From contig JAFSLH010000015.1 of the NCBI GenBank assembly GCA_017448545.1, positions 1-51,793 of the forward strand: 51,793 nucleotides of DNA. The letters are read 5' to 3'. A program made the position numbers and the translations under genes. The notes beneath the pieces were generated by a model. That model did not search any database and was not told the origin of the DNA. It saw only the letters and a program-made list of their open reading frames with translations. Of this stretch, positions 36,477-51,440 are shown in pieces; within the stretch, counting starts at the first letter, position 1, and every line of letters starts with the position of its first letter. The DNA is from Clostridia bacterium (GTDB lineage: Bacteria > Bacillota > Clostridia > Christensenellales > CAG-138).

Positions 36477-38399
36477 TCAATATTTTCTGGCGTCCTTGAC
36501 GTGTTCGAGATGGTCGGCATAGGCCTTGAGGTTGCGCGGGTTCTCGCTGACCTCGGTGTCGCCGACGCGCCACCACGAACCGTAGCCCTCCGTCATCGAC
36601 TTCGGCAGCACGCGGATATCGAACAGCACCGGACGGTCCTTGATCGTCTTTGCATCGCGGATCGCAGCCAGCAGCTCGTTGATCGAACGGATCGTATAGC
36701 CCTTGGCGCCGTAGCCTTCGGCGATCTTTGCAAAGTCGACCGGCATGAACGCGCCGGAGTGCTCGCCGTCCTCGCCGCGGAACCGCAGCTCGGTGCAGAG
36801 CGTGTCGTTGCCGTGGCCGACCTGCAGGTTGTTGATGCAGCCGAACGACGCGTTGTTGAACAGGCAGACGTTGATCTTCTTATGCTCCTGCACGGCGGTC
36901 AAAAGCTCGCTGTGGAGCATGACGAACGAACCGTCGCCCGCCATCGCGTATACGTCGCGGTCGCCGATCGCATACTTGACGCCGAGCGCGCCGGAGATCT
37001 CGTAGCCCATGCAGGAATAGCCGTATTCCATGTTATAGGTATCCACGCCGCGCGCGCACCACATGCGCTGCATATCGCCCGGCAGCGAACCGGAAGCGCC
37101 GATCACGACGTCGTCCGGGTCGATCGCAAGGTTGATCGCGCCGAGAACCGTCGTCTGCGTCAGCGTTGCATCCAGGTCCTTCGCAAACCGGTCGGCAGAC
37201 GCCGCGTTCGCATCGTTGACTTCCGGCACATAGCCTTCGCCGTATTCGATGCCGCGCAGCCGGTCGAGCTCGCGGAACCAGCGATCCCGCGCTTCCTGCA
37301 CTTCGGTGGTGTACGGCGCGCAATAGCCGTCGAGCGCTGCCAGCAGCAGCGGCAGGGCGCGCTTGGCGTCGGCCACGACCGGAACCGCATCCAGCTTCAT
37401 CGCCTGGAAATCGGAAACGTTGACGTTGACAAACTTCGCATCCTCGCGGAACAGCCACTTCGACGCGGTCGTAAAGTCGGTATAGCGGGTGCCGACGCCG
37501 ATCACGACGTCCGCTTCCCTGGCGATCTCGTTCGCCGCGGAGCAGCCCGTTACGCCGATGCCGCCGAGGTTCAGCGGATGATCGAACAGCAGCGCGCTCT
37601 TGCCCGCCTGCGTCTCGCCGAACGGAATGCCGGTCGCTTCGGCAAACGCGCGGAACTCGCCGTGCGCTTCGCTGTACCGGACGCCGCCGCCGCAGATCAG
37701 CAGCGGCTTCTTGGCAGCCTTGATGACGGCCGCCGCTTCCTCGATCGCTTCCGCATCCGGCACGCGCCGCGCGAGGCGGTAGACGCGCTTGGCGAAGAAC
37801 GTTTCGGGATAGTCATACGCTTCGCCCTCGACGTCCTGCGGAATCGCAATGCAGACCGCGCCGGTGTTGGCCGGATCGGTCAGCACGCGGAACGCGGAAA
37901 TCATCGCGCTCATCAGCTGCTCGGGCCGCACGATGCGATCCCAATACCGGCAGACCGGACGGAACGCGTCGTTCGTCGAGATCGAAAGGTCGTTCGTCTG
38001 CTCAATCTGCTGCAGCACCGGATCGGGCTGGCGGCAGGCATAGACGTCGCCGGGCAGAATCAGCACGGGGATGTTGTTCGCCGTTGCCGTTGCCGCCGCG
38101 GTCACCATGTTCGCCGCGCCGGGGCCGACGGACGAAGTGACGGCGATGATCTTTTTCCGCTTCATCTGCTTTGCAAACGCGACGGCGGTATGCGCCATGC
38201 CCTGCTCGTTCTTGCCCTGCCAGACCTTCAGGTTATGCCGTTCCTGCCGGAGCGCCTGGCCGAGACCGACGACGTTGCCGTGGCCGGGCAGCATGATGAC
38301 GCCTTCCACGAACCGATGCTCGATGCCGTCGTATGCAATGTACTGATTCTCCAAAAAGCGCACCAACGCCTGCGCCATGGTCAATCGGACAGTTTTCAT
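36477..38399 (-). CDS. iolD: 3D-(3,5/4)-trihydroxycyclohexane-1,2-dione hydrolase
   Basis: This ThDP-dependent enzyme opens the inositol ring: it hydrolyses the dione made by IolE to 5-deoxy-D-glucuronate. The 640-residue length is normal. Family blocks include [49 protein letters not shown]-like [15 protein letters not shown], the ThDP/Mg motif [29 protein letters not shown] and the C-terminal [12 protein letters not shown]. It is the last gene of the operon and begins 27 bases after iolB with AGGAGG in front. A terminator follows. Confidence 0.96.
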
Positions 38400-38426
38400 A
38401 GGTTCCTCCTTCTTGATTCAGCTCGT

Positions 38427-39218
38427 TCAGCCTTGAAAAATGTGTTCGTTTGCGTCGGGCTTCCAGAGCCAGGCATGCTCCGGATCGTCGATCCGCGTCT
38501 TTTTCCACGGATCGCCGTCGAGATGCCGGATGCCCCAGGCGTAGCACATGGCATAGCCCGGCGCCGCCGCCTGCGAATGGAACCCGTGATTGATGACCGC
38601 ACAGCCGTTGTGTCCGGTTTTGTAGATCTCGCCGTTTGCGAAGCCCGCGCCGAAACCGTGCGGATAGTCGAAACGGTAGAAGTACACTTCCGGCTGCGGA
38701 TGATGGTGCGGCGGGTAGGACGACCACTTGCCGGGGAAGTTCAGCACCTCGCCGAGCACCATGTTGGAAAACGGAGCGTTCTCGTAATCGAAGAACGTTT
38801 TGATCTCCCGCCGCATCGCGCCCATCAGCTCGCCGTTTGCGCCGGCGTGCTGCACCTGGACGGTTTCCGGCGTATACAGCACCGGCTCGTAATCCCGCGG
38901 ATTGACCGTTTGCTGCACATACAGCTCGGCATGGCTCTTTGCCAAAATCCCGATCTTCACGCCGCGCGGGCTGAGCAGGCAGTACGCTTCATGCCGGAAG
39001 CAATCCGGCCGTTCGCACTCGGCGCTCTGCCCGCCGTAGGTGATCGTGACGCTGCCTTCGAACAGCAGCACCGCCGTCTCCTTCTCGGCAGAATCGATCG
39101 TATACACATCGCCCGGCTCCATGACGAGCAGGCCGACGTCCATCAGCGTCCCGAGATCGTCCCGGTCGCTGTCGATGTACGCATTGTAGCCGCGCACAAG
39201 CTGTTTTTCGAGATACAT
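38427..39218 (-). CDS. iolB: 5-deoxy-glucuronate isomerase
   Basis: This cupin-type enzyme converts 5-deoxy-D-glucuronate to 2-deoxy-5-keto-D-gluconate (DKG). The 263-residue protein has the metal-binding SSYPPHHHPQPEVYFYRF (histidines and Glu) and the downstream HNGCAVINHGFHSQAAAPGYAMCYAWGIRHL section (cited in part) of the family. It starts 3 bases before the iolE stop and ends before iolD. Here its product would be the last intermediate of the standard pathway that this operon can make. Confidence 0.94.
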   Translation of the reverse strand: MYLEKQLVRGYNAYIDSDRDDLGTLMDVGLLVMEPGDVYTIDSAEKETAVLLFEGSVTITYGGQSAECERPDCFRHEAYCLLSPRGVKIGILAKSHAELYVQQTVNPRDYEPVLYTPETVQVQHAGANGELMGAMRREIKTFFDYENAPFSNMVLGEVLNFPGKWSSYPPHHHPQPEVYFYRFDYPHGFGAGFANGEIYKTGHNGCAVINHGFHSQAAAPGYAMCYAWGIRHLDGDPWKKTRIDDPEHAWLWKPDANEHIFQG

Positions 39219-39221
39219 ACC

Positions 39222-40130
39222 TTACAGCCCCGTATGCGCCGCGATATACTTGCGGCCCTTGATCGCGTATTCGAGCGGGTTCGCCTTGGCGGGATCCTGC
39301 TCGGCTTCGACCAGCAGCCAGCCCTCGTACTTCGCGTCGGACAGTACCTTGAACACCGGATCGAAGTCCACGTCGCCGTCGCCCGGAACCGTGAACGCGC
39401 CGTTGCGGACGGCGGTCAAAAAGCTCCAGTCGTTCTGCCGCGCCTGCTCGACGACCGACAGCCGCATATCCTTCAGATGCACATGGCCGACGCGGTCGAC
39501 GTACTTCTTCAGCATCAGCAGCGGGTCTTCGCCCGCAAACGTGAAATGACCGGTATCGTAGCACAGGAACACATACCGCGGATCGGTATTCTGCATCATG
39601 CGGTCGGTCTCCTCCGCCGTCTGCACGACGGTGCCCATGTGATGATGGAAGCAGAGCTTGAAGCCGCGCTCCACGGCGATCTTGCCGAGCGCGTCGAGGC
39701 CCTTGCAGAGGCGATCCCATTCGGCGTCGTTCATCACGTACTTATGACCGCCGGTCAAAATCGGCGTGTTGACCTGGCCCTGGATCGAATAGCTCTGCTC
39801 CGAAACGTTGATGCGGTTTGCGCCGACGGCTTCGAGGAAGTCGAGTTCCTTTTGGAAGCTCGCGACGTTCTCCTCGAGCGGCTGCCGAAGCAGGAACGAC
39901 GAGAACCAGCGGCTCGCGATCCGCATCCCGCGCAGGTCGAGTTCCCATTTCAGGACTTTCGGGTCCTTCGGGTACTTGTTGCCGATTTCGCAGCCCGTGA
40001 AGCCCGCGAGCGCCATTTCGCTCACGGTCTGGCGGAACGTATTCTCCGCGCCGAGCTCCGGCATATCGTCGTTGCACCAGCCGATCGGCGCGATGCCGAG
40101 CGAAACCTTTTTCTTATCGAACAATTCCAT
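39222..40130 (-). CDS. iolE: Myo-inosose-2 dehydratase
   Basis: This metal-dependent TIM-barrel enzyme dehydrates 2-keto-myo-inositol. The 302-residue protein has GIAPIGWCNDDMPELG at the N-terminus, TGCEIGNKYPKD, LCFHHHMGTVVQ, YDTGHFTFAGEDP and VHLKDMR with conserved metal ligands (Glu, Asp, His, Glu). Length and motifs agree with IolE. It lies 34 bases downstream of larA and 3 bases upstream of iolB. Confidence 0.95.
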   Translation of the reverse strand: MELFDKKKVSLGIAPIGWCNDDMPELGAENTFRQTVSEMALAGFTGCEIGNKYPKDPKVLKWELDLRGMRIASRWFSSFLLRQPLEENVASFQKELDFLEAVGANRINVSEQSYSIQGQVNTPILTGGHKYVMNDAEWDRLCKGLDALGKIAVERGFKLCFHHHMGTVVQTAEETDRMMQNTDPRYVFLCYDTGHFTFAGEDPLLMLKKYVDRVGHVHLKDMRLSVVEQARQNDWSFLTAVRNGAFTVPGDGDVDFDPVFKVLSDAKYEGWLLVEAEQDPAKANPLEYAIKGRKYIAAHTGL

Positions 40131-40164
40131 TTTCCAATCTCCTTTCGGTTATTCCGTTTCAAAA

Positions 40165-41421
40165 TCATTGCTGCGCCTTGACGCTCGGCAGCGTCGAACC
40201 GCCGAACGGCATCGCCAGTACCGTCGCGTCCGGGCCGAGTTTTTCAAACGCACGATCAAGCGCCGCCTGCGCCGACGGCTGCGGCGTCAGGAAAATCGAC
40301 CGGACAAAGTCGTCGTCCAGATCGGAGACGAGGTCGACCTCCGCGCGCTCCAGCACCATCGCGATCGCCGCCGCCTTATGGCCGCCGAGCTTAAATTCCC
40401 GCCCGATCCGCTCGATCAGGCTGTGCGCGCTCGGCGCGGTCGTCATCCATTCCTCGAACGTTTTTTCGCCGAGACCTTCGTGGCAGGAGCCGATCAGGAT
40501 AATGATCCCGCCGTCCCGCACCGCATGCTTCGCGTTGTCGAGCGCCTTTTGCGTCTGGTACAGGTTCAGATCCTTCGGCGCGCCGCCCTGCGAAACGAGC
40601 ACGATATCCGCCGGCGCGTCGAGCTCCTTGCGATACAGCGTATCGAGGAACGCGCAGCCTGCGCGGTGCGCCGCCACGGGATCGCCCGCCACGGCGCGCA
40701 GAATTTCCTTGTGCTCGCTCAATACGACGTTCACGATAAAGTCGATCCCGACCATTGCGCCCGCTTCTTCGATGTCCATCCGCAGCGGATTCGATTCGAG
40801 CGCGCCCGCTTTCGCTTCGGGCAGCACCATCCGGCTGTGATTCGCCTGGATCGCGGCGCGCGTCGAAACGCCGGGCATGATCGCCTTGGCCCCGCCGGAG
40901 TACCCCGCAAAATAGTGGTACTCGATGTTGCCGAGGCAGATGCGCCGATCCGCTTCCGCGACGACGCGGAAAATGTCCACGGGCGTCCCGCGCGACGTCG
41001 TTCCGTAGGACACGCAGTCCTCTGCGTCGCTGTCGATGCAGCGGATTTCGGCAAACGCGCGCTCGCCGGCGAGCTTTCTGTGCTCTGCTTCGGTCTGCTT
41101 GCGGTGACTGCCGAGGCCGAACACGAGCGTGATATCCTCCGGCTGAACGCCGGCGGCGTACAGCTCGTCCAGCAGCGCGGGCATGACCTTATACGTCGGC
41201 ATCGGGCGCGTGACGTCGCTCGTAATGATCGCGACGGTCTCGCCGGGATGGACGATCTCCCTCAGCCGCGGCGAACCGATCGGTTCCTGCAGCGCGCGGC
41301 GCACCTCCGCTTCCCCGGTCAGCCCGACCGGGACTTCGTTCGCGTGGAGCACGCCGATCAGATTATTATCCGGCACCTCCACCGTCTGGACGGAGGCGCC
41401 GAAGCCGAATTCCAGTTTCAT
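40165..41421 (-). CDS. LarA-family nickel-dependent 2-hydroxyacid racemase/epimerase
   Basis: The 418-residue protein matches the LarA superfamily, whose Ni-pincer cofactor racemises 2-hydroxy acids by hydride transfer. Visible motifs: TSDVTRPMP (D69), GLGSHR (H106), EYHYFAGYSGGAK (H169, cofactor-binding K179) and NHSRMV (H195). The K179-H195 spacing of 16 equals that of K184-H200 in the lactobacillus lactate racemase. LarA relatives include malate, phenyllactate and gluconate epimerases. No larB, larC or larE is present here, so cofactor maturation must come from elsewhere. In this operon, D-malate racemisation is my preferred guess (inference). Confidence 0.9.
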   Translation of the reverse strand: MKLEFGFGASVQTVEVPDNNLIGVLHANEVPVGLTGEAEVRRALQEPIGSPRLREIVHPGETVAIITSDVTRPMPTYKVMPALLDELYAAGVQPEDITLVFGLGSHRKQTEAEHRKLAGERAFAEIRCIDSDAEDCVSYGTTSRGTPVDIFRVVAEADRRICLGNIEYHYFAGYSGGAKAIMPGVSTRAAIQANHSRMVLPEAKAGALESNPLRMDIEEAGAMVGIDFIVNVVLSEHKEILRAVAGDPVAAHRAGCAFLDTLYRKELDAPADIVLVSQGGAPKDLNLYQTQKALDNAKHAVRDGGIIILIGSCHEGLGEKTFEEWMTTAPSAHSLIERIGREFKLGGHKAAAIAMVLERAEVDLVSDLDDDFVRSIFLTPQPSAQAALDRAFEKLGPDATVLAMPFGGSTLPSVKAQQ

Positions 41422-41424
41422 ACG

Positions 41425-42387
41425 TTATTTCCGTGCCAGCACGGCCTTGACCTGCTGAGCGACGTGATCCGCCGTCAGGCCGAACCGCTTCTGCAGATAG
41501 TCCTGCTTGCCGACTTCGCCGAACTCGTCCTCGACGGCGACGCACGCCGCGGGAACCGGGCAGCGCTCCGCCAGCACTTCGAGCACGTTGCAGTAGAGGC
41601 CGCCGTGGCGGTTCGCGTTCTCCGCTACGACGACCGCGCCGGTCTTCTTTGCCCACGCTTCGACCGCGTCCGCATCGAGCGGCTTGATCGTGAAGCAGTC
41701 GACGACCGCAACGGAGATGCCCTCTTTTTCGAGCGCGGCAGCCGCCTGCAGCGCTTCATGCAGCATCAGGCCAGCCGCGAACACGACCGCGTCCGTGCCT
41801 TCGCGCAGCGTGACCGCCTTGCCGATTTCGAGCTCGCTGCCGTCCGCGTAGATGCGGGCCAGCTGCTTGCGGCCGACGCGGATGTATTTGACGCCCTTCC
41901 GGCCGTTGCACTGGCGCAGCACGCTTTCGAGGCAGGTCGGGTCGGACGCGTCGATGATCGTCGCTTCCGGCAGAACGTTGTACAGCGCGACGTCTTCAAA
42001 CGGCATGTGCGTGCCGCCGTTCATGGCCGCCGTAACGCCCGGGTCGGTGCCGATGACCGTGATGCTGTTCTTTGCATAGCCGCCGGACAGGAAAATCTGG
42101 TCGTAAATGCGGCGCGAAGTGAACGTGCCGAAGCTGTGGATGATCGGCTTGAACCCTGCGACCGCAAGACCGGCCGCCACGCCCGCCATGTTCGCTTCGG
42201 CGATGCCGCAGTCGATCGCGCGGGTCGGGTTCGCCTGCGCCCACTTGAGCGTGCCGGAGCAGCCCATCAGGTCGGCGTCGAGGAAGATCGCATCGGGATC
42301 GTTGTCCACGATATCCGCAATCGTTGCGCCCAGAACGTCCTTACAGAGGCGCGGATCCATTTCTCCGTTATACACAATCTGTTTCAT
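41425..42387 (-). CDS. Transketolase, C-terminal subunit (split enzyme)
   Basis: The 320-residue protein is the pyrimidine-binding plus C-terminal domain of a two-gene transketolase. The conserved Glu that activates ThDP lies in DCGIAEANMAGVAAGLA; next come SFGTFTSRRIYDQI, VIGTDPGVTAAMNGGTHMPFEDVAL and KYIRVGRKQ. The unit is 3 bases from larA and 1 base from the N-terminal subunit gene, so both subunits are made together. In a split form the enzyme may use substrates other than the usual sugar phosphates; see the DKG hypothesis. Confidence 0.95.
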   Translation of the reverse strand: MKQIVYNGEMDPRLCKDVLGATIADIVDNDPDAIFLDADLMGCSGTLKWAQANPTRAIDCGIAEANMAGVAAGLAVAGFKPIIHSFGTFTSRRIYDQIFLSGGYAKNSITVIGTDPGVTAAMNGGTHMPFEDVALYNVLPEATIIDASDPTCLESVLRQCNGRKGVKYIRVGRKQLARIYADGSELEIGKAVTLREGTDAVVFAAGLMLHEALQAAAALEKEGISVAVVDCFTIKPLDADAVEAWAKKTGAVVVAENANRHGGLYCNVLEVLAERCPVPAACVAVEDEFGEVGKQDYLQKRFGLTADHVAQQVKAVLARK

Positions 42388-42388
42388 G

Positions 42389-43231
42389 TTACGCCTCCAG
42401 TTCCTTGATTTCCGCTCTGAGCTGTTCCGTCCACCGCGCGTGACGGTCGTCGTCGACCGGCATGCTGTGGTTCATCTTTGTTTCTTCGATCTCCTTGACG
42501 CCGTGGCCCTTCACGGAATCGAGGATGATCGCATACGGTTTCTCGCCGCCCGCACGGGTGCGCTCGACCGCCGCCGCAATCGCTTCGACGTCGCCGCCGT
42601 CCACCATCACGGTATCGAAGCCGAACGCTTCCATCTTGGCAACGTAGTCGCCCATCGGGAACACGTCCTCGCAATAACCGTCCAGCTGCTTCTTGTTCCA
42701 GTCGATGAACACGACGAGGTTTCCGACCTTCTTGGCCGCGGCAAACGCGAACGCTTCCCAGCACTGGCCCTCGTTGCTCTCGCCGTCGCCGACGATCAGG
42801 AACGTGCGCGACGGACGGCCCTTCAGCTTATCGCCGAGCGCAAGACCGACGGCCTGCGACGTGCCCTGGCCGAGCGAACCGGTGGTCACGTCGACGCCGG
42901 GCGTCTTGTTCCGGTCGCAATGGCTCGGGAGCCGCGTGCCGCCCTTGTTCAGCGTTTTCAGCTCTTCATACGGGAAGAATCCCAACAGAGCGAGCGTGCC
43001 GTACACGGCGGGGCCGGCATGGCCCTTCGAAACGACCAGCTTGTCGCGATCCGGCCACTTCGGATCGGTCGGACGAACCTGCATTTCCCGGCCGTACAGC
43101 ACGGCCAGCGTATCGGCGATGCTCAGCGCGCCGCCGACGTGGCCGGAGCCGATCGAATGGATCGCGTCCAGCGCGGCGATGCGGATGCGCGCCGCAAATG
43201 CTTTCAGTTTTTTGATTTCCTGTTGTTCCAT
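42389..43231 (-). CDS. Transketolase, N-terminal subunit (split enzyme)
   Basis: The 280-residue protein is the ThDP-phosphate-binding half. It contains GSGHVGGALSIADTLAVLY, KLVVSKGHAGPAVYGTLALLGF and TGSLGQGTSQAVGLALGDKL, and the ThDP/Mg motif GDGESNEGQCWEA. It pairs with the downstream C-terminal subunit. It lies 19 bases after pgk. In the proposed pathway this enzyme would cut the unphosphorylated ketose DKG between C4 and C5. Confidence 0.95.
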   Translation of the reverse strand: MEQQEIKKLKAFAARIRIAALDAIHSIGSGHVGGALSIADTLAVLYGREMQVRPTDPKWPDRDKLVVSKGHAGPAVYGTLALLGFFPYEELKTLNKGGTRLPSHCDRNKTPGVDVTTGSLGQGTSQAVGLALGDKLKGRPSRTFLIVGDGESNEGQCWEAFAFAAAKKVGNLVVFIDWNKKQLDGYCEDVFPMGDYVAKMEAFGFDTVMVDGGDVEAIAAAVERTRAGGEKPYAIILDSVKGHGVKEIEETKMNHSMPVDDDRHARWTEQLRAEIKELEA

Positions 43232-43250
43232 ACCTTTCTCCTTCCCGTAC

Positions 43251-44501
43251 TTACAGAGGCAGTTCGGAGCCGTGCCGCAGCGCCTTCACCACCGGCAGTT
43301 CTTCGCCGCTGAGGAAGCGGATCAGCGCGCCGCCGCCCGTGCAGATATAGCCGATCTTGTCGGTCAGACCATACTTTTCGGTCGCAGTGATGCTGTCGCC
43401 GCCGCCGAGCACCGTAAAGCCCTCGGTATCGGCCAGCGCCTGCCACAGCGCCTTCGTTCCGTACTCGCTCGGCGCCTGCTCAAAAATGCCCATCGGGCCG
43501 TTGACGAACACGGTCCTGGCCCGCAGGATGCGCGCCCGATAGTCCGCCGCCGTTTCGTGCCCGACGTCGATCGCGCCGATGTCCGCCGGAATCTCGCCGA
43601 GCTTCGCCTCGTGCCGCTCGCCGTCCGTGACCCATGCAAGGTCGGTCGGCAGCACGATCTTCTGCCCGTACGTCGCGTACAGTTCCCGCGCGACTTCGTA
43701 ATATTCGGTATAATTCGATTTCTCAATGAACGCCGCGCTGCCCGCGCCGATGTCGTTTCCGAGCGCGATCAGGAAGATGTTCGCAACGAGGCCGCCGGTC
43801 AGGATCTCGTCGGCAACGCCGCGCTCCAGCACGGTCTTCATCATCTGGAACGCATCCGAAATCTTCGCGCCGCCCAGAGAGAACACGCAGGGGCGCTGCG
43901 GCTCCTCCATGACGGAAGACACGGTGCAATATTCCTTCTCAAACAGCCGGCCCATCGCACTCGGCAGAACCTGCTCGAACCCGCAAAGGCTCGGCTGATC
44001 GCGGTGCGCTGCGGCAAACGCGTCGCAAACGTAGTAATCCGCCAGCGGCGCAAGCTTTTCGACAAGCAGCGTCTTTGCCTGCTGCTCATGCGAAAGGCGA
44101 AGCTTCATCTCAAAGAGCGTCTGCTCCTCGGAAACGAAGCGAACATTGTCCAGCAAAAGGATTTCGCCGTCCTTGAGGGCTTTGATCGCTTCGCGCGCGG
44201 CGGGGCCGCAAACGTCGTCGATAAAGCGCACTTCCTTGCCCAAAAGACGCGAAAGAACCGCAGCATGCGGCCTTGTCGTGTAGAAATTTTTATACTCGAT
44301 GTCGCTGCCCTGATGCGCAAGCAAAACGACCCGCGCTCCGTTTTCACTGAGCTCGCGGATCGTCGGCACGCAGGCCGTGATACGGTTCACGCTTTTCAGC
44401 GTGCCCGTACCACGGTCCACGGGTTGATTGATGTCTACCCGGCACAGCACGGTCTTGCCGCGCACTGGAAGCTCATCGAGCGTTCTGATCCCGAATCGCA
44501 T
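43251..44501 (-). CDS. pgk: Archaeal-type phosphoglycerate kinase (variant substrate site)
   Basis: The 416-residue protein is a full PGK resembling the archaeal type: VLCRVDINQPVD (R21, D23), CDAFAAAHRDQPSLCGF (R167), FSLGGAKISD (K213), FVNGPMGIFE, LGGGDSITATEKYG and ICTGGGALIRFL. The canonical HxGR/K position, which holds a basic residue for the 3-phosphate of 3-phosphoglycerate, is H63-Q-G-S66-D67 here, so that residue is gone. R40, R121 and R167 are kept. It may thus act on a carboxylate analogue (malyl phosphate) rather than, or besides, 1,3-bisphosphoglycerate (inference). It is directly downstream of the GAPDH gene (18-base gap). Confidence 0.9.
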   Translation of the reverse strand: MRFGIRTLDELPVRGKTVLCRVDINQPVDRGTGTLKSVNRITACVPTIRELSENGARVVLLAHQGSDIEYKNFYTTRPHAAVLSRLLGKEVRFIDDVCGPAAREAIKALKDGEILLLDNVRFVSEEQTLFEMKLRLSHEQQAKTLLVEKLAPLADYYVCDAFAAAHRDQPSLCGFEQVLPSAMGRLFEKEYCTVSSVMEEPQRPCVFSLGGAKISDAFQMMKTVLERGVADEILTGGLVANIFLIALGNDIGAGSAAFIEKSNYTEYYEVARELYATYGQKIVLPTDLAWVTDGERHEAKLGEIPADIGAIDVGHETAADYRARILRARTVFVNGPMGIFEQAPSEYGTKALWQALADTEGFTVLGGGDSITATEKYGLTDKIGYICTGGGALIRFLSGEELPVVKALRHGSELPL

Positions 44502-44519
44502 TCTGTTTCTCCGATCTTC

Positions 44520-45572
44520 TTATTTGAACCGACCGATCTTGAGGTACTCGTTCGTCTTGGCGGTGCCTTCCTCACAGGTCAGCTGCATCTTCATGCAGGC
44601 ACGGATTGCGTCGATCGTTTCCGGAATCGTGACGCTCTCCTGCGGAATGTTGATCGCGAACATGATATCGTTGCCGCTCTCGACGATGCTGTCTTCCCAG
44701 AGGCCGATCTCGTACATGTCGCCGCGGCGGTTGCCGAGGTCACGCGCATACTTGAACAGACTCGCATTGCCCTTGAAGCCTTCGTCGATCGTGACGGTGC
44801 GGATACGCGGATGCTTGCGGAACGCTTCGAGCGCTTCTTCCCGCGTGATCTTTCTGCCGTCCCGGCCGGTTGCGAGCACGGTGATGATGTGGCCGTGGGT
44901 CACCGGCGTGTGGACGAGGATGCCGGTCGCTTCGATGTGCGGCATGATCGTCATCAGGTCGAGCGCCTGGTGCGACGGCGCCTTGTCGATCTGCAGCGCG
45001 TTCGTCAGGCCGCGATGATAGTCGCCCGGATCCGCAACGCGGCGGATAATCGTGATGGCAACCTTCTCGACGCCGTATGCGCGATCGAGGCAGTCGACCG
45101 CACGGATCAGACCGGTCGTGTTGCAGCTCGTCAGCTTCAGGTATTCCTGGCCGACGCCCTTTTCGTAGTTCGCATAGCCATGGAAGAACACGTCCGCGAC
45201 GGAGTTCTTTTCACCGCCCTGGAAGATCGCCTTGACGCCGACCTTCTGGTACAGCTCCTTGTTCTTTGCGCCGACGCCGCCCGGGGAGGAATCGAGCATG
45301 ACGTCTACCTTGCGGCAGAGTTCCTCGAACGTTCCCGCGACCGGGATATCGAACTTGTCGAACGCCGCCTTGTCCGCGCCGTCGACCAGATACAGATTGT
45401 ACTTGACGTTGTTCGCGCCGATCATGTCATTCTCGCGCAGCGCGCGGATGGACAGCGTAGGCGCAAGATCCGCGATACCGACGAGCTCCATGTCCCCCTG
45501 CATCGCAACGCCGTCTGCGAGGCGCTGACCGATTGTGCCGTATCCTGCTACGCCGACTTTAATCTTTGCCAT
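44520..45572 (-). CDS. Archaeal-type (type II) glyceraldehyde-3-phosphate dehydrogenase-like protein
   Basis: The 350-residue protein resembles archaeal GAPDH, not the bacterial GapA. It has a Rossmann start KVGVAGYGTIGQRLADGV, LDSSPGGVGAKNKELYQ, KAIFQGGEK, the catalytic Cys in SCNTTGLIR (C150), RRVADPGDYHRG and GHIITVLA with a likely catalytic His (H226/H228). The HHGPD segment of archaeal enzymes, near the substrate phosphate, is HQALD here (201-205). It may oxidise an aldehyde acid such as malate semialdehyde to an acyl phosphate (inference). It lies between iolG (28-base gap) and pgk (18-base gap), which is unusual for inositol clusters. Confidence 0.88.
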   Translation of the reverse strand: MAKIKVGVAGYGTIGQRLADGVAMQGDMELVGIADLAPTLSIRALRENDMIGANNVKYNLYLVDGADKAAFDKFDIPVAGTFEELCRKVDVMLDSSPGGVGAKNKELYQKVGVKAIFQGGEKNSVADVFFHGYANYEKGVGQEYLKLTSCNTTGLIRAVDCLDRAYGVEKVAITIIRRVADPGDYHRGLTNALQIDKAPSHQALDLMTIMPHIEATGILVHTPVTHGHIITVLATGRDGRKITREEALEAFRKHPRIRTVTIDEGFKGNASLFKYARDLGNRRGDMYEIGLWEDSIVESGNDIMFAINIPQESVTIPETIDAIRACMKMQLTCEEGTAKTNEYLKIGRFK

Positions 45573-45600
45573 ATTCGAACTCCTTTCCGTTTTCCGCCGT

Positions 45601-46614
45601 TCAGATTTCGTCTACCCGTACCGGGCGATTTTCTTTCATGGACTTCAGGCAGGCCTGCGCCAGCTTGACCGAGACGAGACCGTCCCAGATGCCGGTCTGC
45701 GGCTGCTCGTTCTTGAGGATACACTCGATGAACTCGCGGACTTCCGCCTGATAGGAACCCATGTACCGCTCGAGGAAGAACCACAGCGGCTTTTCACCGG
45801 TCACGCCGTCCACATTGGACAGCACGACGTTCGAAGCGGTATCGTTCTGCGTCGTGGCGCAGCCCTTGGAGCCGAACACTTCGCCGCGCTGATCGTAGCC
45901 GTACACCGCCTTGCGGGAACCGTCCACGGTCGCGAGCGCGCCGTTCGCCAGCTTCATCGTGATCGTGCAGGTATCCACGTCGCCCGCTTCGCCGATGGCC
46001 GGATCGATCAGGCATGCGCCCTGCGCGTACACTTCAACGACTTCCTGACCGGACAGGTAACGCACCATATCGAGATCGTGAATCATCATGTCCATGAAGA
46101 TGCCGCCGGACACCGCAACATACTTGGCGGGCGGGGGCTCCGGGTCACGGGAGGAAACACGAACGTACTGCACCTCGCCGATCTTGCCGTCCTGCACGGC
46201 CTTGCGCAGCGCGCGGTAGTTGTGGTCATACCGGCGGTTGAAACCGACCTGATAGATCAGCGGCTTCGGAGACGCTTTCAGCGCCGCGTCGACTTCTTCG
46301 ATCCGCTCGATGCTCTGATCGATCGGCTTCTCGCAGAAGATGTGCTTGCCGGCGGCGATCGCTTCAAGCGAAATCTGCGCGTGCAGCGTCGTCGAAGCAC
46401 AGATCAGAACCGCCTCGATCTTCGGATCGTCCAGAATCTTGTGATAGTCCTCATACACATTGTCGATTCCGACAGACTTTGCCCATTCCGCAACTGCGGG
46501 CTGCATGAACGGGTCTGCGATGGCGGCGATGTGTGCTTCCGGAACGCCCGTCAGGATGCTCTTCGCGTGGACCTGTCCGATACGACCGGCTCCGATAATG
46601 CCAACTTGAATCAT
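45601..46614 (-). CDS. iolG: Inositol 2-dehydrogenase
   Basis: The NAD-dependent enzyme starts inositol breakdown by oxidising myo-inositol to 2-keto-myo-inositol. The 337-residue protein of the Gfo/Idh/MocA family has GIIGAGRIGQVHAKS (dinucleotide binding), FCEKPIDQS with the catalytic Lys, QVGFNRRYDHNY and GGIFMDMMIHDLDM with the conserved Asp/His. Length and sequence match IolG best, but scyllo-inositol or glucose dehydrogenases in the family are close relatives. It lies 41 bases after the phosphoglycerate mutase gene. Confidence 0.93.
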   Translation of the reverse strand: MIQVGIIGAGRIGQVHAKSILTGVPEAHIAAIADPFMQPAVAEWAKSVGIDNVYEDYHKILDDPKIEAVLICASTTLHAQISLEAIAAGKHIFCEKPIDQSIERIEEVDAALKASPKPLIYQVGFNRRYDHNYRALRKAVQDGKIGEVQYVRVSSRDPEPPPAKYVAVSGGIFMDMMIHDLDMVRYLSGQEVVEVYAQGACLIDPAIGEAGDVDTCTITMKLANGALATVDGSRKAVYGYDQRGEVFGSKGCATTQNDTASNVVLSNVDGVTGEKPLWFFLERYMGSYQAEVREFIECILKNEQPQTGIWDGLVSVKLAQACLKSMKENRPVRVDEI

Positions 46615-46655
46615 GTTTTTTCCTCCGTTTTTTTGAACTATAACCCTTCCGGGGA

Positions 46656-48221
46656 TTATTCGGTATAAGCTTCGCCGCTGCCTTCGGTCAAAGAACCGTA
46701 GGTGCGCTGAATCTTAGCCCAGTTTTGGTCGCGGTCGAGCGCAACGCCTCTCCCGACGCCCGAAACGATCGTGCCGACGCCTTTTTGTGCGAGCGTTTCG
46801 CCGAGCTCGCGCAAAAGCGCGGGCGCACTGCCCGGCAGCGTGGATCGCCCGTCAAAGATGATATGTACATAAACGTCCTCGAGGCCCGCTTCCTTCGCCA
46901 TGTCGACGAGCGCAAGCGGATAGTCGATCGACCCATGCGAGGACTTTTTCGTCAGCAGCGCGAACAGGTGCAGCGCCGTCCCGCGCCGTTTGACCGATTC
47001 GATCGTTTCGAGGAACACAGGGTTCTTCGCAAACGAACCGTCCTTCATCGCATTGTCCAGCCGCACGTCGTCCTGCAGAACGACTCTGCCGGAACCGAGA
47101 TTGATGTGTCCCGCTTCCGAATTGCCGGTCTTGCCCTCCGCAAGCCCGACCGCCGGGCCGGACGCTTCGAGCTTTGCATACGGATAGTCGCGCAGCAGCG
47201 CGTCCCATTCCGGCGTCGCCGCCGTATGGATCGGGTTGTTTTCGGTCGGCAGATCGAGACCCCATCCGTCGCAGATCAAGAGCAGCACTTTTCCGGTGTT
47301 TGCAAAGCGGAACAGCGGCTTTCCGGTCATTTCGGCGGGCTGTTCAATGCCCATCGCGGACAGGATCGTCGGCGCGACGTCGCAGAGTTTTCCGCTCTCC
47401 CTCAGCCGCTCGGTTCCTTCGCCGAGCGCGATGCAGGCGACGAGATTCGTCGTGTGCGAAACGTGCGGTTTGCCCTCCGGCGTATGCAGAATTTCGATGT
47501 TTCCGTGGTCTGCGGTTACAAGAACAGTATAGCCCTTTTCACGCGCGTATGCAACAGTTTCGCCGATATATTTGCTGACTGCAGTGCACGCAATCGGCTT
47601 TGCGCTGTCGCTGGAAGTATGGCCGATGACGTCGCCGTTCGCGAAGTTCGTCACGATGAAATCATACCCCTTGTCGAGCCCTTCTTCGAGCTTTTTCGCG
47701 ACCTCCGGCAGCTTCAGTTCCGGTACCGTGTCGAACGGAACGCCCTTCGGCGACGGGATGCGGAAATCGTCCTCGCCCGCAAACGGCGTCTGGTTGCCGC
47801 CGTTGAAGAAGAACGTCACATGCGCGTATTTCTCGCTTTCGGCGAGGTGCATCTGCGTCTTGCCGTTATTCGCCAGCACCTCCGCCAGCGTCTTCTGCAC
47901 CTTCGACGGCGCAAACGCGATCGGCAGATAGGTATACCGCTCGCTGTACATCGTCAGGATCACGAAATCGAGCGGATCGAGCATCCTGCGCTCGAACCCC
48001 TTGAAGTTCGGATCGGTAAACGCGTCGGTCAGTTCCGTTTCGCGCTCGCCGCGGCGGCAGCAGAAGATCACGCCGTCGCCCGCCTGCACAAGTCCTTCCG
48101 CCTTGCCGTCTTGGCCGACAAGGTTCATCGGCTCGAAATGGTACTCCGAGCCGCCGTTTTCATACCGTTTTTCGACCGCGCGCGCAAGCGCCTCGCCGCC
48201 GGCCAGTTGATACTGTGACAT
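46656..48221 (-). CDS. Circularly permuted cofactor-independent phosphoglycerate mutase
   Basis: The 521-residue protein contains all of iPGM, but in rotated order. Residues 1-302 match the canonical second half: IFCCRRGERE, EKYAHVTFFFNGG (131-142), NFANGDVIGH (D197, H201), TADHGN (D238, H239) and PHVSHTTN (H256), ending EMTGKPLF. A 7-residue linker leads into residues 311-521, which match the canonical first half: LLICDGWG (D318), GNSEAGH (catalytic S368), LTKKSSHGSIDYP (H429), DGRS (R459, where the family has DGRD) and ALDRDQNW. All seven metal ligands and the catalytic Ser are present. The gene is a single open frame with a GGGGGG site before the ATG. It is 71 bases after a HAD gene. Confidence 0.92.
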   Translation of the reverse strand: MSQYQLAGGEALARAVEKRYENGGSEYHFEPMNLVGQDGKAEGLVQAGDGVIFCCRRGERETELTDAFTDPNFKGFERRMLDPLDFVILTMYSERYTYLPIAFAPSKVQKTLAEVLANNGKTQMHLAESEKYAHVTFFFNGGNQTPFAGEDDFRIPSPKGVPFDTVPELKLPEVAKKLEEGLDKGYDFIVTNFANGDVIGHTSSDSAKPIACTAVSKYIGETVAYAREKGYTVLVTADHGNIEILHTPEGKPHVSHTTNLVACIALGEGTERLRESGKLCDVAPTILSAMGIEQPAEMTGKPLFRFANTGKVLLLICDGWGLDLPTENNPIHTAATPEWDALLRDYPYAKLEASGPAVGLAEGKTGNSEAGHINLGSGRVVLQDDVRLDNAMKDGSFAKNPVFLETIESVKRRGTALHLFALLTKKSSHGSIDYPLALVDMAKEAGLEDVYVHIIFDGRSTLPGSAPALLRELGETLAQKGVGTIVSGVGRGVALDRDQNWAKIQRTYGSLTEGSGEAYTE

Positions 48222-48241
48222 TTGCGTCCCCCCAGATCAAT

Positions 48242-48283
48242 AGTTTACAGTTGAGAGTTTACAGTTTACAGTTTACAGTTGAA
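48242..48283. repeat. Six-copy 7-bp tandem repeat
   Basis: AGTTTAC, AGTTGAG, AGTTTAC, AGTTTAC, AGTTTAC and AGTTGAA follow one another in the intergenic space between the mutase and the fourth HAD gene. The copy number could vary. No gene or terminator lies here. Confidence 0.85.
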
Positions 48284-48292
48284 AGTGTTCGA

Positions 48293-49072
48293 TCAGCCGA
48301 CGATGCGGGGCGTCGGGTCCTCCGCCGCTTCGGGGCAGAACCTGCCGTCTCCCGGGAAGATCTCGAGCAATTCTTCGAAATGATGCAGGATGCAGTCCGG
48401 CCGGTTCTCCTGCGTCAGCTTGAATTCCAGCCCGCCGGGGTACTCCGCGCCGACCGTGCCCGCAAAGTTCGACTGCTTTGCGCCGATGATGTCGCGCTTG
48501 AGGTTGTCGCCCACGAAACAGCTTTCCTCCGGCCGCACGCCCGCTTCCTGCAGCGCGAGGAAGTAGATCGCCGGATGCGGCTTCCGCAGCATCGTTACGC
48601 TCGACTGCTGCACGGTGCAGAACAGATCGCGGATTCCGTCGTGATCCAGCCACTCGTCGATCTCGATCGTGCCGATCAGGTCGCTGATGATGCCGACCAG
48701 ATAGCCGCGTTTCCGCAGCTCGCGAACCGTTTCCACGCCGTTTTCCACGACCACGCGCTCGCCCTTGGCGCGGCGGAAGCAATAGGTCAGCTCCTTCGCC
48801 GCGGGTTCGATCTTGGCACGATCCCATTCCGGGACGAGCCAGCGCGTCCAGAGCATCTCCTCCGGCGCTTCGCACATATACTTCAGCGCCCAGTTCCGGT
48901 ACCCGTCGTACCGCTTGTTCAGGAAATCATAGAACGTATCTGCGTCCATGTCCGTCCCGCAGAGTTCCTTGATGCGCTCGCGCGCCTGCCGGATGAACGG
49001 ATGGTTCTCCTCGTCCACCACGCGGAACGTGCCGCCGAGATCGAGGAAGATCGCCTTGATGTTCTCTTTCAT
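48293..49072 (-). CDS. HAD-like hydrolase (fourth of tandem set)
   Basis: The 259-residue protein has HAD motif I as FLDLGGT (nucleophile Asp, but Gly where the acid/base Asp is usual), motif II as IISD, motif III Lys in RKPHP and motif IV as VGDNLKRD. A helical cap (EMLWTRWLVPEWDR and following) resembles the neighbouring paralogues. Substrate unknown. The gene starts 2 bases after the third HAD stop codon, so the set is co-transcribed. Its last third has diverged more than its paralogues. Confidence 0.85.
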   Translation of the reverse strand: MKENIKAIFLDLGGTFRVVDEENHPFIRQARERIKELCGTDMDADTFYDFLNKRYDGYRNWALKYMCEAPEEMLWTRWLVPEWDRAKIEPAAKELTYCFRRAKGERVVVENGVETVRELRKRGYLVGIISDLIGTIEIDEWLDHDGIRDLFCTVQQSSVTMLRKPHPAIYFLALQEAGVRPEESCFVGDNLKRDIIGAKQSNFAGTVGAEYPGGLEFKLTQENRPDCILHHFEELLEIFPGDGRFCPEAAEDPTPRIVG

Positions 49073-49074
49073 GG

Positions 49075-49842
49075 TCAGACCCTCCGCACCTTATCCCACG
49101 CGACGTGCGGCGCCGCCGGGAAGATTTCCTTGAGCTCGGCGAAATCGAAAATGACCGCGTCCGGACGGTTCTCGTCCGTGATCTTTTCCTTCGCCAGCTT
49201 TTCGGGCGTCGTATACAGAATGAACATGCCGTAGCCCGCCAGCCGCGTGCCTTCCACGTCGCGGTTCAGGTTATCGCCGATATAGACGCAGCGCTCCGGC
49301 TTGACGCCGAGCAGGTCGCACGCCTTATTCGAGATCGCCGGGTCGGGCTTGCGGATGCCTTCCACACAGGAAAGCAGCACCGCGCCGAAATACTGTTCCA
49401 GACCGTCCGCCTTCAGCCAGCGCGGAATCTCCTGCGACGTGACCAGGTTCGAGATGATGCCGAGCTTATAGCCGTTCGCGTACAGGTCCTTGATCGACTG
49501 TGCGCCGTTCGGCGCGACGACGCGGCGGCCGTCCTTGTTGCGGTACTCGATCGTCAGCTCGATCGCGTTCTTCTTGATCAGCTCGCGATCGTATTCCGGC
49601 GTCAGCCACTTCGTCCAAAGCTCCTCTTCCGGCGCTTCCTTCATCGTTTCGAAGCACCATTTGCGGTAGCCCGCATAGCGGTAATCGAGGAATTTGCAGA
49701 ACTCGTCCGGGTCGCCGGTCTCGCCGCACATTTCGGCGATTTTGCGGCGCGCTTCGGCTTCAAACGCAGCGTCGCGCTCGACCAGACGCAGCGTTCCGCC
49801 GAGGTCGTAAAAGACAGCGTCAAATTCGCGTTCGGTATTCAT
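49075..49842 (-). CDS. HAD-like hydrolase (third of tandem set)
   Basis: The 255-residue protein has motif I FYDLGGT, motif II IISN, motif III Lys in IRKPDP and motif IV YIGDNLNRD. The nucleophile Asp is present, but the second Asp of DxDxT is Gly. Cap sequence EELWTKWLTPEYDRE is close to its neighbours, so it arose by tandem duplication. It lies 1 base from the second HAD gene and 2 from the fourth. Role not assignable beyond phosphate-ester or acyl-phosphate cleavage. Confidence 0.85.
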   Translation of the reverse strand: MNTEREFDAVFYDLGGTLRLVERDAAFEAEARRKIAEMCGETGDPDEFCKFLDYRYAGYRKWCFETMKEAPEEELWTKWLTPEYDRELIKKNAIELTIEYRNKDGRRVVAPNGAQSIKDLYANGYKLGIISNLVTSQEIPRWLKADGLEQYFGAVLLSCVEGIRKPDPAISNKACDLLGVKPERCVYIGDNLNRDVEGTRLAGYGMFILYTTPEKLAKEKITDENRPDAVIFDFAELKEIFPAAPHVAWDKVRRV

Positions 49843-49843
49843 G

Positions 49844-50581
49844 TTATGCCTCCTGTTTTTCGTTCAGCGGCGGGAAGATATCCAAAAGCTCGGAAATCCG
49901 CGTGATCGTATAATCCGGCTGTAGAATGATTTCCTGCGGCTCGTTTTTGATGGTATCCGGCTCGTCGATGCGGATCATCGTCGCAAAACCCGCCTTGCGC
50001 GTGCCTTCCACGTCGCGGATCGGGTTGTCGCCGACGTACGCGCACTGTTCCGGCTTCTTGCCGATCGCGCGGCAGGCGAGGAAATAGATTTCCGGGTCCG
50101 GCTTGCGCAGACGCACCTTCGAAGATAGAATCACGGCCTTGAAATAATGCGCTACGCCGTCGGCGATCATCCAGTCCGGAATCTCGGTCTCGGTGATCGT
50201 GTTCGCAATGATGCCCAGCGTATAGCCGCGCCGATTCAGCTCAATAATCGTGGACTTCACGTCGTCGCGCGGAACGCGGCGGCCGTCGTGATCCCGCCAG
50301 AGCCGCGTGAGCCGTCCCGCATGCGCGCAAACGCGTTCGGAATCGTAATCGGGCAGCAGATGCTGGCTCCAAAGCTCCATCTCGCCGGCGTCCAGCAGCG
50401 TCTTTTTGACTTCCTTGCGGTACTTCTGCCAATTCCGCTCCAGCTTTTCGAAGAACACATCGTGCGGCTCGGTCGCGCCGACCAGCTCCATCAACTCCTT
50501 CTCGGCCGCGGCGGAAAACTCGGGGTCGCGGATGACGATGCGCAGCGTGTTTCCGACGTCAAAAAAGATCGTGTCTGTCAT
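49844..50581 (-). CDS. HAD-like hydrolase (second of tandem set)
   Basis: The 245-residue protein has motif I FFDVGNT (nucleophile Asp; Gly at the acid/base position), motif II IIAN, motif III in LRKPDP and motif IV YVGDNPIRD. It matches the other three in the cap (MELWSQHLLPDYDSE) and length. It is 26 bases after the first HAD gene, with a weak ribosome binding site, and 1 base before the third gene. Substrate unknown. Confidence 0.85.
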   Translation of the reverse strand: MTDTIFFDVGNTLRIVIRDPEFSAAAEKELMELVGATEPHDVFFEKLERNWQKYRKEVKKTLLDAGEMELWSQHLLPDYDSERVCAHAGRLTRLWRDHDGRRVPRDDVKSTIIELNRRGYTLGIIANTITETEIPDWMIADGVAHYFKAVILSSKVRLRKPDPEIYFLACRAIGKKPEQCAYVGDNPIRDVEGTRKAGFATMIRIDEPDTIKNEPQEIILQPDYTITRISELLDIFPPLNEKQEA

Positions 50582-50607
50582 ATCCTCTGTCTCCTTTTCT
50601 GTAATAC

Positions 50608-51369
50608 TTATTTCTGATCATTGATCCGGCGAAGTATCTCCGGAATTTCATACAGCTCCTGCACCAGATAATCGGGCTTCGGCGCGTCCGCGCCATGGAA
50701 CGCCACGTCCCGATGTGCGATCGACGGGTTCGCAACCTGAATCACAAGCCCCAGCCCCGCGTTGCGCGCGCCGCGCACGTCGCGCGAAATCGTGTCGCCC
50801 ACATACCCGGTTTCGGCCGCCGTCACGCCCATTTCGTCCATCGCGACGGCAAAGATGCGCGGGTCCGGCTTCCGGATCCCGGCCGACGACGACATCACGA
50901 TCGTTTCCATGTACTGCGCGATGCCGTATTCGTTCAGCATGTGCGGCACGAGCGACGTCGAGATGATATTGGAAACGACGCCCATCCGGATGCCGAGCGC
51001 ATGCAGCTCCTCGATCGTTTCCTTGAGACGCGTTTTGCGCATGTTCTCCACGCGCTCATAATCATAGAGGAAGCTCAGCTCTTCCGCGATCGGCGCAAAC
51101 CGCTCGCGCGGGATGCCGAAGTCGCGCAAATACCATTCGCTCCAGATTTCGTCCTGCGGCAGCTCCGTCCAATCCTGCTCCCCGCGGTGCTTGTACGATT
51201 CCGCGTTTTTACGAAGGAGCGCATTGAGCGCCTCCGGCGTCGTGTCGAGCGCGATCCCGTATTGCCCCAGACGGCGAATCAGATGCGCGGCAAACCGCAG
51301 GCGGGATTCCTCCGACCCGTGCACGTCGTGCAGCGTTCCGCCCAGATCGAACAGCAGCGTTGTGATCAT
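50608..51369 (-). CDS. HAD-like hydrolase (first of tandem set, first gene of operon)
   Basis: The 253-residue protein has motif I LFDLGGT, motif II VVSN, motif III in IRKPDP and motif IV YVGDTISRD, with the same missing acid/base Asp. The start at 51369 follows GGAGGGG; an in-frame start further upstream (51426) would read through the operator region and lacks such a site. It leads the operon, so it is expressed closest to the LacI-type operator. Its substrate is unknown. Confidence 0.85.
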   Translation of the reverse strand: MITTLLFDLGGTLHDVHGSEESRLRFAAHLIRRLGQYGIALDTTPEALNALLRKNAESYKHRGEQDWTELPQDEIWSEWYLRDFGIPRERFAPIAEELSFLYDYERVENMRKTRLKETIEELHALGIRMGVVSNIISTSLVPHMLNEYGIAQYMETIVMSSSAGIRKPDPRIFAVAMDEMGVTAAETGYVGDTISRDVRGARNAGLGLVIQVANPSIAHRDVAFHGADAPKPDYLVQELYEIPEILRRINDQK

Positions 51370-51440
51370 AGCCCCTCCCGTTTTTCGCCGTTTTATCGCC
51401 CGCTGTGCATACCGAAACAAACGCATCTTACGCAGCGATT

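Follow-up and report, generated by a model that had tools for sequence, protein, structure and literature searches.

A candidate kinase-free route from inositol to malate encoded beside iol genes in a Clostridia bacterium

Why does an operon for inositol breakdown carry homologues of transketolase, two glycolytic enzymes and a malate racemase, and no gene for the usual kinase? The question is raised by a 51,793-nucleotide stretch of DNA from a Clostridia bacterium (assembly GCA_017448545.1, contig JAFSLH010000015.1), referred to here in its full length as the window. In this window, 14 minus-strand open reading frames (ORFs) lie end to end at positions 36477-51426 and, on the ORF map, form one operon. 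In order of transcription they encode four HAD hydrolases, a homologue of the cofactor-independent phosphoglycerate mutase (iPGM), IolG, a type II glyceraldehyde 3-phosphate dehydrogenase (GAPDH-II), a phosphoglycerate kinase (PGK), a transketolase in two parts, LarA, IolE, IolB and IolD. Family scans agreed with this inventory, which an initial annotation had drawn from the letters of the sequence; IolB scored poorly against its equivalog model but was clearly recognised by Pfam. The same annotation had called the PGK archaeal-type, and its best solved match was indeed P. horikoshii PGK (2cun). By tblastn at E 1e-5, no match to iolC, iolA or malic enzyme was found across the whole window (IolJ was not searched for). 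We consider it likely that this operon encodes an inositol catabolic route that dispenses with a kinase for 5-dehydro-2-deoxy-D-gluconate (DKG) and runs instead via transketolase, look-alikes of GAPDH-II and PGK, and a malate racemase.

IolG, IolE, IolD and IolB convert myo-inositol to DKG in textbook steps, and the window's four proteins, by their families, would do the same. DKG is (3R,4S)-3,4,6-trihydroxy-5-oxohexanoate and, read from C6, has the configuration of D-xylulose 5-phosphate, with CH2-COO replacing CH2-OPO3. A cut between C4 and C5 leaves (R)-3-hydroxy-4-oxobutanoate (D-malate semialdehyde), an analogue of D-glyceraldehyde 3-phosphate (G3P) in the same manner, and oxidation of this aldehyde gives (R)-malate, i.e., D-malate. 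In the proposed route, the split transketolase would take DKG for xylulose 5-phosphate, pass C5-C6 to a sugar phosphate acceptor and leave D-malate semialdehyde. The GAPDH-II homologue would then convert the aldehyde, together with inorganic phosphate and NAD(P), to an acyl phosphate, from which the PGK homologue would form D-malate and ATP; both assignments draw on family membership, stereochemistry and changed phosphate-site residues. LarA, whose family is clear, would convert D-malate to L-malate. As the oxidation product is D-malate, a racemase is needed ahead of an L-malate-specific malic enzyme, which in the many relatives with the gene in their operons would yield pyruvate and CO2. The C2 unit would enter the pentose phosphate pool.

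The window's genome is a metagenome-assembled genome (MAG) of 1.5 Mb with a completeness of 59.87%, and it yielded no IolC over cut-off (best E 4.8e-12) and no IolA over cut-off (best E 1.5e-28). Since a genome of this completeness cannot decide the matter, the absence of both genes was examined in relatives. Among 201 genomes (the window's own and 200 relatives), 29 had iolD, eight iolC, 13 iolA and 31 type II GAPDH over cut-off. Neither iolC (0/23) nor iolA (0/23) was found over cut-off in genomes with both iolD and GAPDH-II, and both were present in each of the six genomes with iolD and no GAPDH-II (G113, G171, G179, G189, G194 and G196). Because related genomes are not independent, the comparison was repeated on 33 further genomes from a separate collection, in which iolD (by tblastn) lies inside a GAPDH-II locus and none of which was recognised among the first set. 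Over cut-off, iolC was found in 0/33 and iolA in 1/33. The prediction that iolC is missing from genomes carrying iolDEBG and the accompanying module is thus borne out by the relatives. The parallel prediction for iolA holds for the 23 genomes and for 32 of the 33, but fails in one spirochaete.

A further suggestion of the initial annotation, a genome search for iol genes next to larA, split transketolase and type II GAPDH genes, showed that the set recurs widely. From the 201-genome sample, 40 stretches were fetched and the window's proteins were mapped on them. Gene order was nearly identical across the window's genus and in g13, a second genus of the same family. In a further genus (G028, locus L036) the order differs; this genus has iolE, iolB, iolD, two copies of iolG, GAPDH-II, PGK, larA, malic enzyme and both transketolase parts, and is without iPGM and the HAD hydrolases. 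Four genomes that are without the operon transketolase were tested (G003, G006, G010 and G014), and all four carry, elsewhere, a copy that is 80-82% identical. For a second sample, a genome collection was scanned with a GAPDH-II alignment and the best 80 of at least 491 relatives were taken as loci, 11 of which (L115-L125) were judged to be from genomes also present in the 201-genome set. Across these 80 loci, pgk was found in 71, larA at more than 50% identity in 58, transketolase in 47, at least two iol genes in 41, and malic enzyme at more than 50% identity in 26. In the 41 loci with at least two iol genes in the fetched DNA, we found pgk in 40, a larA homologue in 38, transketolase in 27 and a malic enzyme homologue in 17, where "homologue" also takes in matches below 50% identity; the numbers were the same when only iolD, iolE and iolB at 35% identity or more were counted. 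The gene orders of these 41 loci amount to 25 different strings, some of them broken by contig ends. Recurrence of the same set in so many genomes is more than chance.

The record titles of the 80 loci include Clostridia, Spirochaetales, Treponema, Chloroflexi, Anaerolineaceae and a Planctomycetaceae MAG, as well as the isolates Dorea sp. D27 and Oscillibacter valericigenes An411, bearing in mind that MAG titles can err through contamination; the loci of the Planctomycetaceae MAG and of O. valericigenes showed no module genes beyond gapII and pgk. Of 41 loci with an iolD match, 29 have an iolD 66-90% identical to the window's and 12 one that is 48-55% identical. The iolD of iolC-bearing clusters is 53-56% identical to it. 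As iolD types diverge in this way while the GAPDH-II of the module stays at 77-95% identity, the module appears, from these identities, to have combined with different iol sets on at least two occasions. With somewhat less assurance than for the operon itself, we favour the view that this is a widespread "carboxylate-mimic" branch of central metabolism, in which transketolase, GAPDH and PGK have all moved from phosphate to carboxymethyl substrates, a C6 keto acid is cleaved without having been phosphorylated and its C4 half yields ATP at D-malyl phosphate, and which gut and rumen bacteria from several phyla use for inositol.

If the substrates are carboxymethyl analogues, changes are expected among the phosphate-binding residues but not among the catalytic ones. 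For PGK, GAPDH and LarA, residues were counted over the distinct proteins of relatives, taking one best match per locus and omitting matches of less than 30% identity or under half length, duplicates and the window itself. Among 81 distinct PGKs, the position of Arg65 holds Ser in 76 (as in the window), Asp in four and a gap in one, whereas the positions equal to Arg38, His62, Arg121, Arg168 and Lys215 are kept in 81/81. In the comparison PGKs, this position is Arg or Lys in 5/5 PDB rows shown and Arg in the canonical PGK of the window's own genome. According to a passage in PMC7729029, Arg65, Arg122 and Arg170 of PGK bind the 3-phosphate of the substrate. Of the basic patch of glycolytic PGKs (Arg65, Arg121/122 and Arg168/170), Arg65 is absent in 80/80 readable copies and the other two are kept in 81/81. 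In GAPDH-II, the catalytic Cys is kept in 95/95 and the second His of the SHH motif is Gln in 95/95, the copies read having SHQ, THQ or NHQ where archaeal structures have SHH (4/4). We take the SHH pair, from UniProt/HAMAP annotation, to contact G3P in type II GAPDH. The transketolase C subunits (window included, matches of fewer than 280 aligned residues dropped, some non-module paralogues kept, namely L039, L146, L164 at 7413 and L167 at 218) carry KCFDR in 44/56, the window among them, and K[CST]FDR in 50/56. As set out in part of PMC11659671, RSFHR serves the phosphate group in canonical transketolases, and RAFDR is the motif of the sulfofructose transketolase, whose substrate has a non-phosphate headgroup. 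A shift in substrate had been proposed for all three sugar-phosphate enzymes, and at the level of sequence the residues at substrate-phosphate positions are changed in all three. Such changes, with the catalytic residues kept, fit DKG and D-malate semialdehyde as substrates.

LarA relatives had been said to include a malate racemase, and the window's own protein falls in that family: it exceeds the cut-off of 500 bits for NF052593 (nickel-dependent malate racemase, LarAH6 family), as do those of four of six other loci (L036, L173, L185 and L187), the remaining two scoring below it (L138, 357 bits; L188, 407 bits). LarA keeps His171, Tyr172, Gln293 and Lys351 of Mar2, the LarAH6 enzyme of Thermoanaerobacterium thermosaccharolyticum (PDB 6d6z); in the readable ones of 75 distinct proteins, Tyr172, Gln293 and Lys351 are kept and Lys173 is replaced by Phe. 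One section of PMC7583248 gives Y172, K173, Q293 and K351 as substrate residues of Mar2. Unlike Mar2, the window's LarA sits in an operon context of inositol breakdown.

In 13 of 20 larA-iolE junctions of relatives, a gene of about 390 codons lies between the two (matching in pieces in L046 and L104), and the two copies scanned belong to the malic enzyme family (PF00390 and PF03949); in L036, malic enzyme follows larA. Malic enzyme had played no part in the reasoning of the initial annotation, and it would take L-malate, the very product that the scheme predicts. With malic enzyme beside larA in many relatives, malate is probably converted to pyruvate, and the earlier suggestion that L-malate feeds fumarate and succinate formation is amended in this sense. 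At L194 (7251-14781), gapII-pgk-malE-larA stand directly after genes resembling those for E2 and E3 of the pyruvate dehydrogenase complex, an arrangement that fits pyruvate as product.

The iPGM homologue is circularly permuted: by alignment to 1ejj, residues 15-303 correspond to iPGM 219-508 and residues 312-520 to 6-214, so that the C-terminal part comes first, within one open frame. This permutation, which had gone unnoticed, is seen in the window and also in L040-L054, L127, L133, L135 and L163. It is conserved in 13 aligned copies, the 12 others being 73-90% identical to the window's, and sets the protein apart from ordinary iPGM although it exceeds the TIGR01307 cut-off. The iPGM and HAD genes had been left unexplained by the scheme; both are confined to a subset of loci. 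Since iPGM occurs in only 14 of the 80 GAPDH-II loci, we count it, with the HAD hydrolases, as accessory to the route. In L040-L048, L051-L053 and other same-family loci, genes for a lacI-type regulator, for a PHP-domain protein and for a divergent PfkB kinase form a divergent cluster upstream of the HAD genes. PfkB may act on inositol or inositol phosphates.

A different reading, already raised as an alternative in the initial annotation, is that GAPDH, PGK and iPGM form a spare set for lower glycolysis, one that works on G3P and phosphoglycerates and is co-regulated with inositol use, with the transketolase belonging to the ordinary pentose phosphate pathway. The set does cover three glycolytic steps in a row, some G3P would have to be processed if the C2 unit joins the pentose phosphate pool, and the permuted iPGM keeps, in an alignment read against what we take to be the residue roles, the active Ser, the metal ligands and, apart from Asp154 (here Ser), the substrate residues. 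However, a canonical PGK and a further split transketolase (L034) are already encoded in the window's genome, family scans found neither enolase nor pyruvate kinase in the operon, iPGM is rare among the loci, and PGK Arg65 and the GAPDH SHH pair are lost in every readable copy. A spare set would also leave the malate racemase, the malic enzyme and the absence of iolC and iolA unexplained. We therefore reject it as the main role and regard it as quite unlikely. It is also conceivable that transketolase cuts DKG but that the GAPDH homologue forms D-malate directly, without phosphate, the PGK serving another reaction. One genome (G026) keeps GAPDH-II beside iolE with no pgk at the locus, as this would allow; pgk is nevertheless present in 71 of the 80 GAPDH-II loci and in all but one of the 41 iol-bearing ones, and GAPDH and PGK carry matching changes, which makes a phosphate-free step very unlikely.

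In the remaining alternative, DKG would still receive a phosphate, from the divergent PfkB, before being cleaved by an aldolase whose gene lies elsewhere; class II aldolases of the IolJ type are common to glycolysis. The PfkB gene (PF00294, 35 bits) adjoins the operon, within the lacI-PHP-pfkB cluster, in many same-family loci, and 46-48% identical copies occur in two canonical iol loci, L100 and L101. As both of the latter also have a true iolC, PfkB is no replacement for iolC there. The gene occurs, moreover, in only 14 of the 80 loci, 12 of which have the permuted iPGM, and IolA, which the resulting malonate semialdehyde would require, is over cut-off in none of the 23 relatives with iolD and GAPDH-II. 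We hold this alternative, for which no search aimed at IolJ was made, to be highly improbable.

Several observations weigh against the transketolase route, beginning with that PfkB gene near the operon in close relatives. The single iolA carrier of the 33 further genomes is a spirochaete (G232, behind L191), and G075 (L038, 93% complete) has GAPDH-II, pgk, larA and transketolase together with iolA over cut-off and no iolD over cut-off. LarA has Phe where Mar2 has Lys173 in 75/75 distinct proteins. Malic enzyme is missing from the window, as noted, and from seven of the 20 larA-iolE junctions of relatives. Human PGK R65W, as given in part of PMC6040698, reaches 14.7 vs 224.5 s-1 mM-1 for 3-phosphoglycerate, about 7% of kcat/KM, so that loss of Arg65 does not exclude this substrate. 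The transketolase H-to-D change is shared by the same-genome paralogue L034 (RAFDR); it was accordingly rejected as an operon-specific mark, and the argument rests on the whole motif. The C2 unit has no simple fate, given that phosphoketolase was found in 3/201 genomes and transaldolase in 1/8. Phosphoketolase, confined to G018 in the window's genus, was rejected as the general C2 fate; a sedoheptulose bisphosphate route is possible. The clearest counter-example is G026 (L040, 98% complete), which keeps iolD/E/B/G and GAPDH-II but is missing the block pgk-tktN-tktC-larA-malE between gapII and iolE; there, the transketolase C subunit matches nothing but DXS (694 bits), and larA has no match in the genome. 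This genome represents either a natural deletion or a different fate of DKG. Finally, 39 of the 80 loci have fewer than two iol genes in the fetched DNA, some being broken by contig ends, and five are GAPDH-II without any other module gene. As the module is found without nearby iol genes, for example in Dorea sp. D27, it may have other or wider substrates; in the carboxylate-mimic view, it would probably also serve other deoxy-keto acids.

Compared with the canonical iol pathway (Bacillus subtilis type: IolG, E, D, B, C, J and A), the window is alike in the steps to DKG by family, with IolG, IolE and IolD over their NCBIfam equivalog cut-offs and IolB matching by Pfam but under its own. It differs in that genomes with iolD and GAPDH-II have no iolC and, one exception aside, no iolA over cut-off, and in that the module instead has transketolase, GAPDH, PGK, malate racemase and, often in relatives, malic enzyme. 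The archaeal type II GAPDH and PGK share with the window's proteins the family, the catalytic Cys and the PGK site residues other than Arg65, whereas the substrate-phosphate-site residues are changed in the copies read of the window's kind, which sits in bacteria beside iol genes. The sulfo-TK pathway for sulfoquinovose (SqwGH) also has a two-gene transketolase, with a thiamine diphosphate (ThDP)-binding N subunit and a C subunit, and moves a C2 unit from a ketose with a non-phosphate acidic end, as is predicted here; the headgroup His is Asp in both. According to a section of PMC11659671, the published acceptor of that transketolase is G3P. The window's motif is, however, KCFDR rather than RAFDR, its predicted substrate is carboxymethyl rather than sulfonate, and its aldehyde is predicted to be harvested for ATP on the way to malate, that of the sulfo-TK pathway being isomerised and cut again. 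Neither the sulfoquinovose isomerase SqvD nor the SEu isomerase SqwI was named among the family matches of the operon, in which no dedicated search for them was made. The second split transketolase of the window's genome (L034, contig C5) has RAFDR, as reported for the sulfofructose transketolase, and on this motif the window's genus may also use sulfoquinovose. The Anaerostipes inositol-to-propionate route (PMC8355322) is likewise an anaerobic gut use of inositol; it differs in that its abstract names 3-oxopropionyl-CoA and a CoA transferase, and no occurrence of transketolase was counted in that paper.

Phytate and phospholipids make inositol a common substrate in the gut, and its use is scored in genome surveys by iolB/C/D/E. 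One such survey, of 2022, demanded three of these four genes and, in a passage on this rule, put a missing fourth down to incomplete sequence, assembly errors or frameshifts as possible causes (PMC9430895); carriers of the present module could thus look like damaged canonical clusters. Among the top matches of the literature searched, mostly outside subscription journals, titles and abstract openings contained no transketolase, GAPDH-II or malate route from inositol, which is no proof of absence, and the route via transketolase and malate appears to be undescribed. If it operates, ATP would be gained from inositol without ATP being spent on DKG kinase, and malate would be made rather than dihydroxyacetone phosphate and malonate semialdehyde. 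Three textbook enzyme families would acquire new substrates, and a metabolic place would be found for a kind of malate racemase whose in vivo function is termed an open question in part of PMC7583248.

The features of the operon are collected in Table 1. The first HAD hydrolase gene may start at 51426, vs 51369 in the initial annotation.

Table 1. Genes of the operon, listed by position in the window.
Feature	Position	Strand	Evidence
iolD, trihydroxycyclohexanedione hydrolase	36477..38399	-	TIGR04377 899.8 bits, cut-off 715
iolB, 5-deoxy-glucuronate isomerase (makes DKG)	38427..39218	-	KduI/IolB PF04962 161 bits; TIGR04378 92 bits, below cut-off 205
iolE, inosose dehydratase	39222..40130	-	TIGR04379 407 bits, cut-off 290
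larA, predicted nickel-pincer malate racemase (LarAH6/Mar2 type)	40165..41421	-	NF052593 570.5 bits, cut-off 500; best PDB match Mar2 6d6z
Split transketolase, C-terminal subunit	41425..42387	-	PF02779/PF02780; best PDB match 6yaj (split transketolase); headgroup motif KCFDR
Split transketolase, N-terminal (ThDP) subunit	42389..43231	-	PF00456 172 bits; best PDB match 6yak
PGK homologue, proposed D-malyl phosphate kinase	43251..44501	-	PF00162 386 bits; Ser-66 at 3-phosphate-binding Arg65 position
Type II GAPDH homologue, proposed phosphorylating D-malate semialdehyde dehydrogenase	44520..45572	-	NF003251 393.9 bits, cut-off 185; Cys-150 kept, SHQA replaces SHHG/SHHA
iolG, inositol 2-dehydrogenase	45601..46614	-	TIGR04380 452 bits, cut-off 355
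Circularly permuted iPGM homologue, accessory	46656..48221	-	TIGR01307 470 bits, cut-off 331; alignment to 1ejj
HAD hydrolase 4, accessory	48293..49072	-	PF00702 65 bits
HAD hydrolase 3, accessory	49075..49842	-	PF00702 67 bits
HAD hydrolase 2, accessory	49844..50581	-	PF00702 70 bits
HAD hydrolase 1, accessory; leading gene of the operon within the window	50608..51426	-	PF13419 72 bits

Other arrangements of the module genes were also observed. The parts are unlinked in G150 (L095 and L037), where iolB, iolD, iolE and iolG lie on one contig, gapII and a 45% identical pgk on another and larA on a third, with iolC and iolA not over cut-off. In the isolate Dorea sp. D27 (L185, 10001-16765), the order is gapII-pgk-larA-malE-tktN-tktC with no iol match within 21 kb, and a TIM-barrel isomerase-like gene and a zinc alcohol dehydrogenase gene lie nearby on the opposite strand. 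At L039 (9102-19820; G088), a GAPDH-II of the same clade has as its neighbours a split transketolase of another kind (RAFDR), alcohol dehydrogenase-like genes, and one member each of the HpaB and acetyl-CoA hydrolase/transferase families; this locus perhaps encodes another carboxylate-mimic route. In the window itself, a clostripain-family (Peptidase_C11) protein is encoded on the plus strand at 33741-36245, just downstream of the operon.

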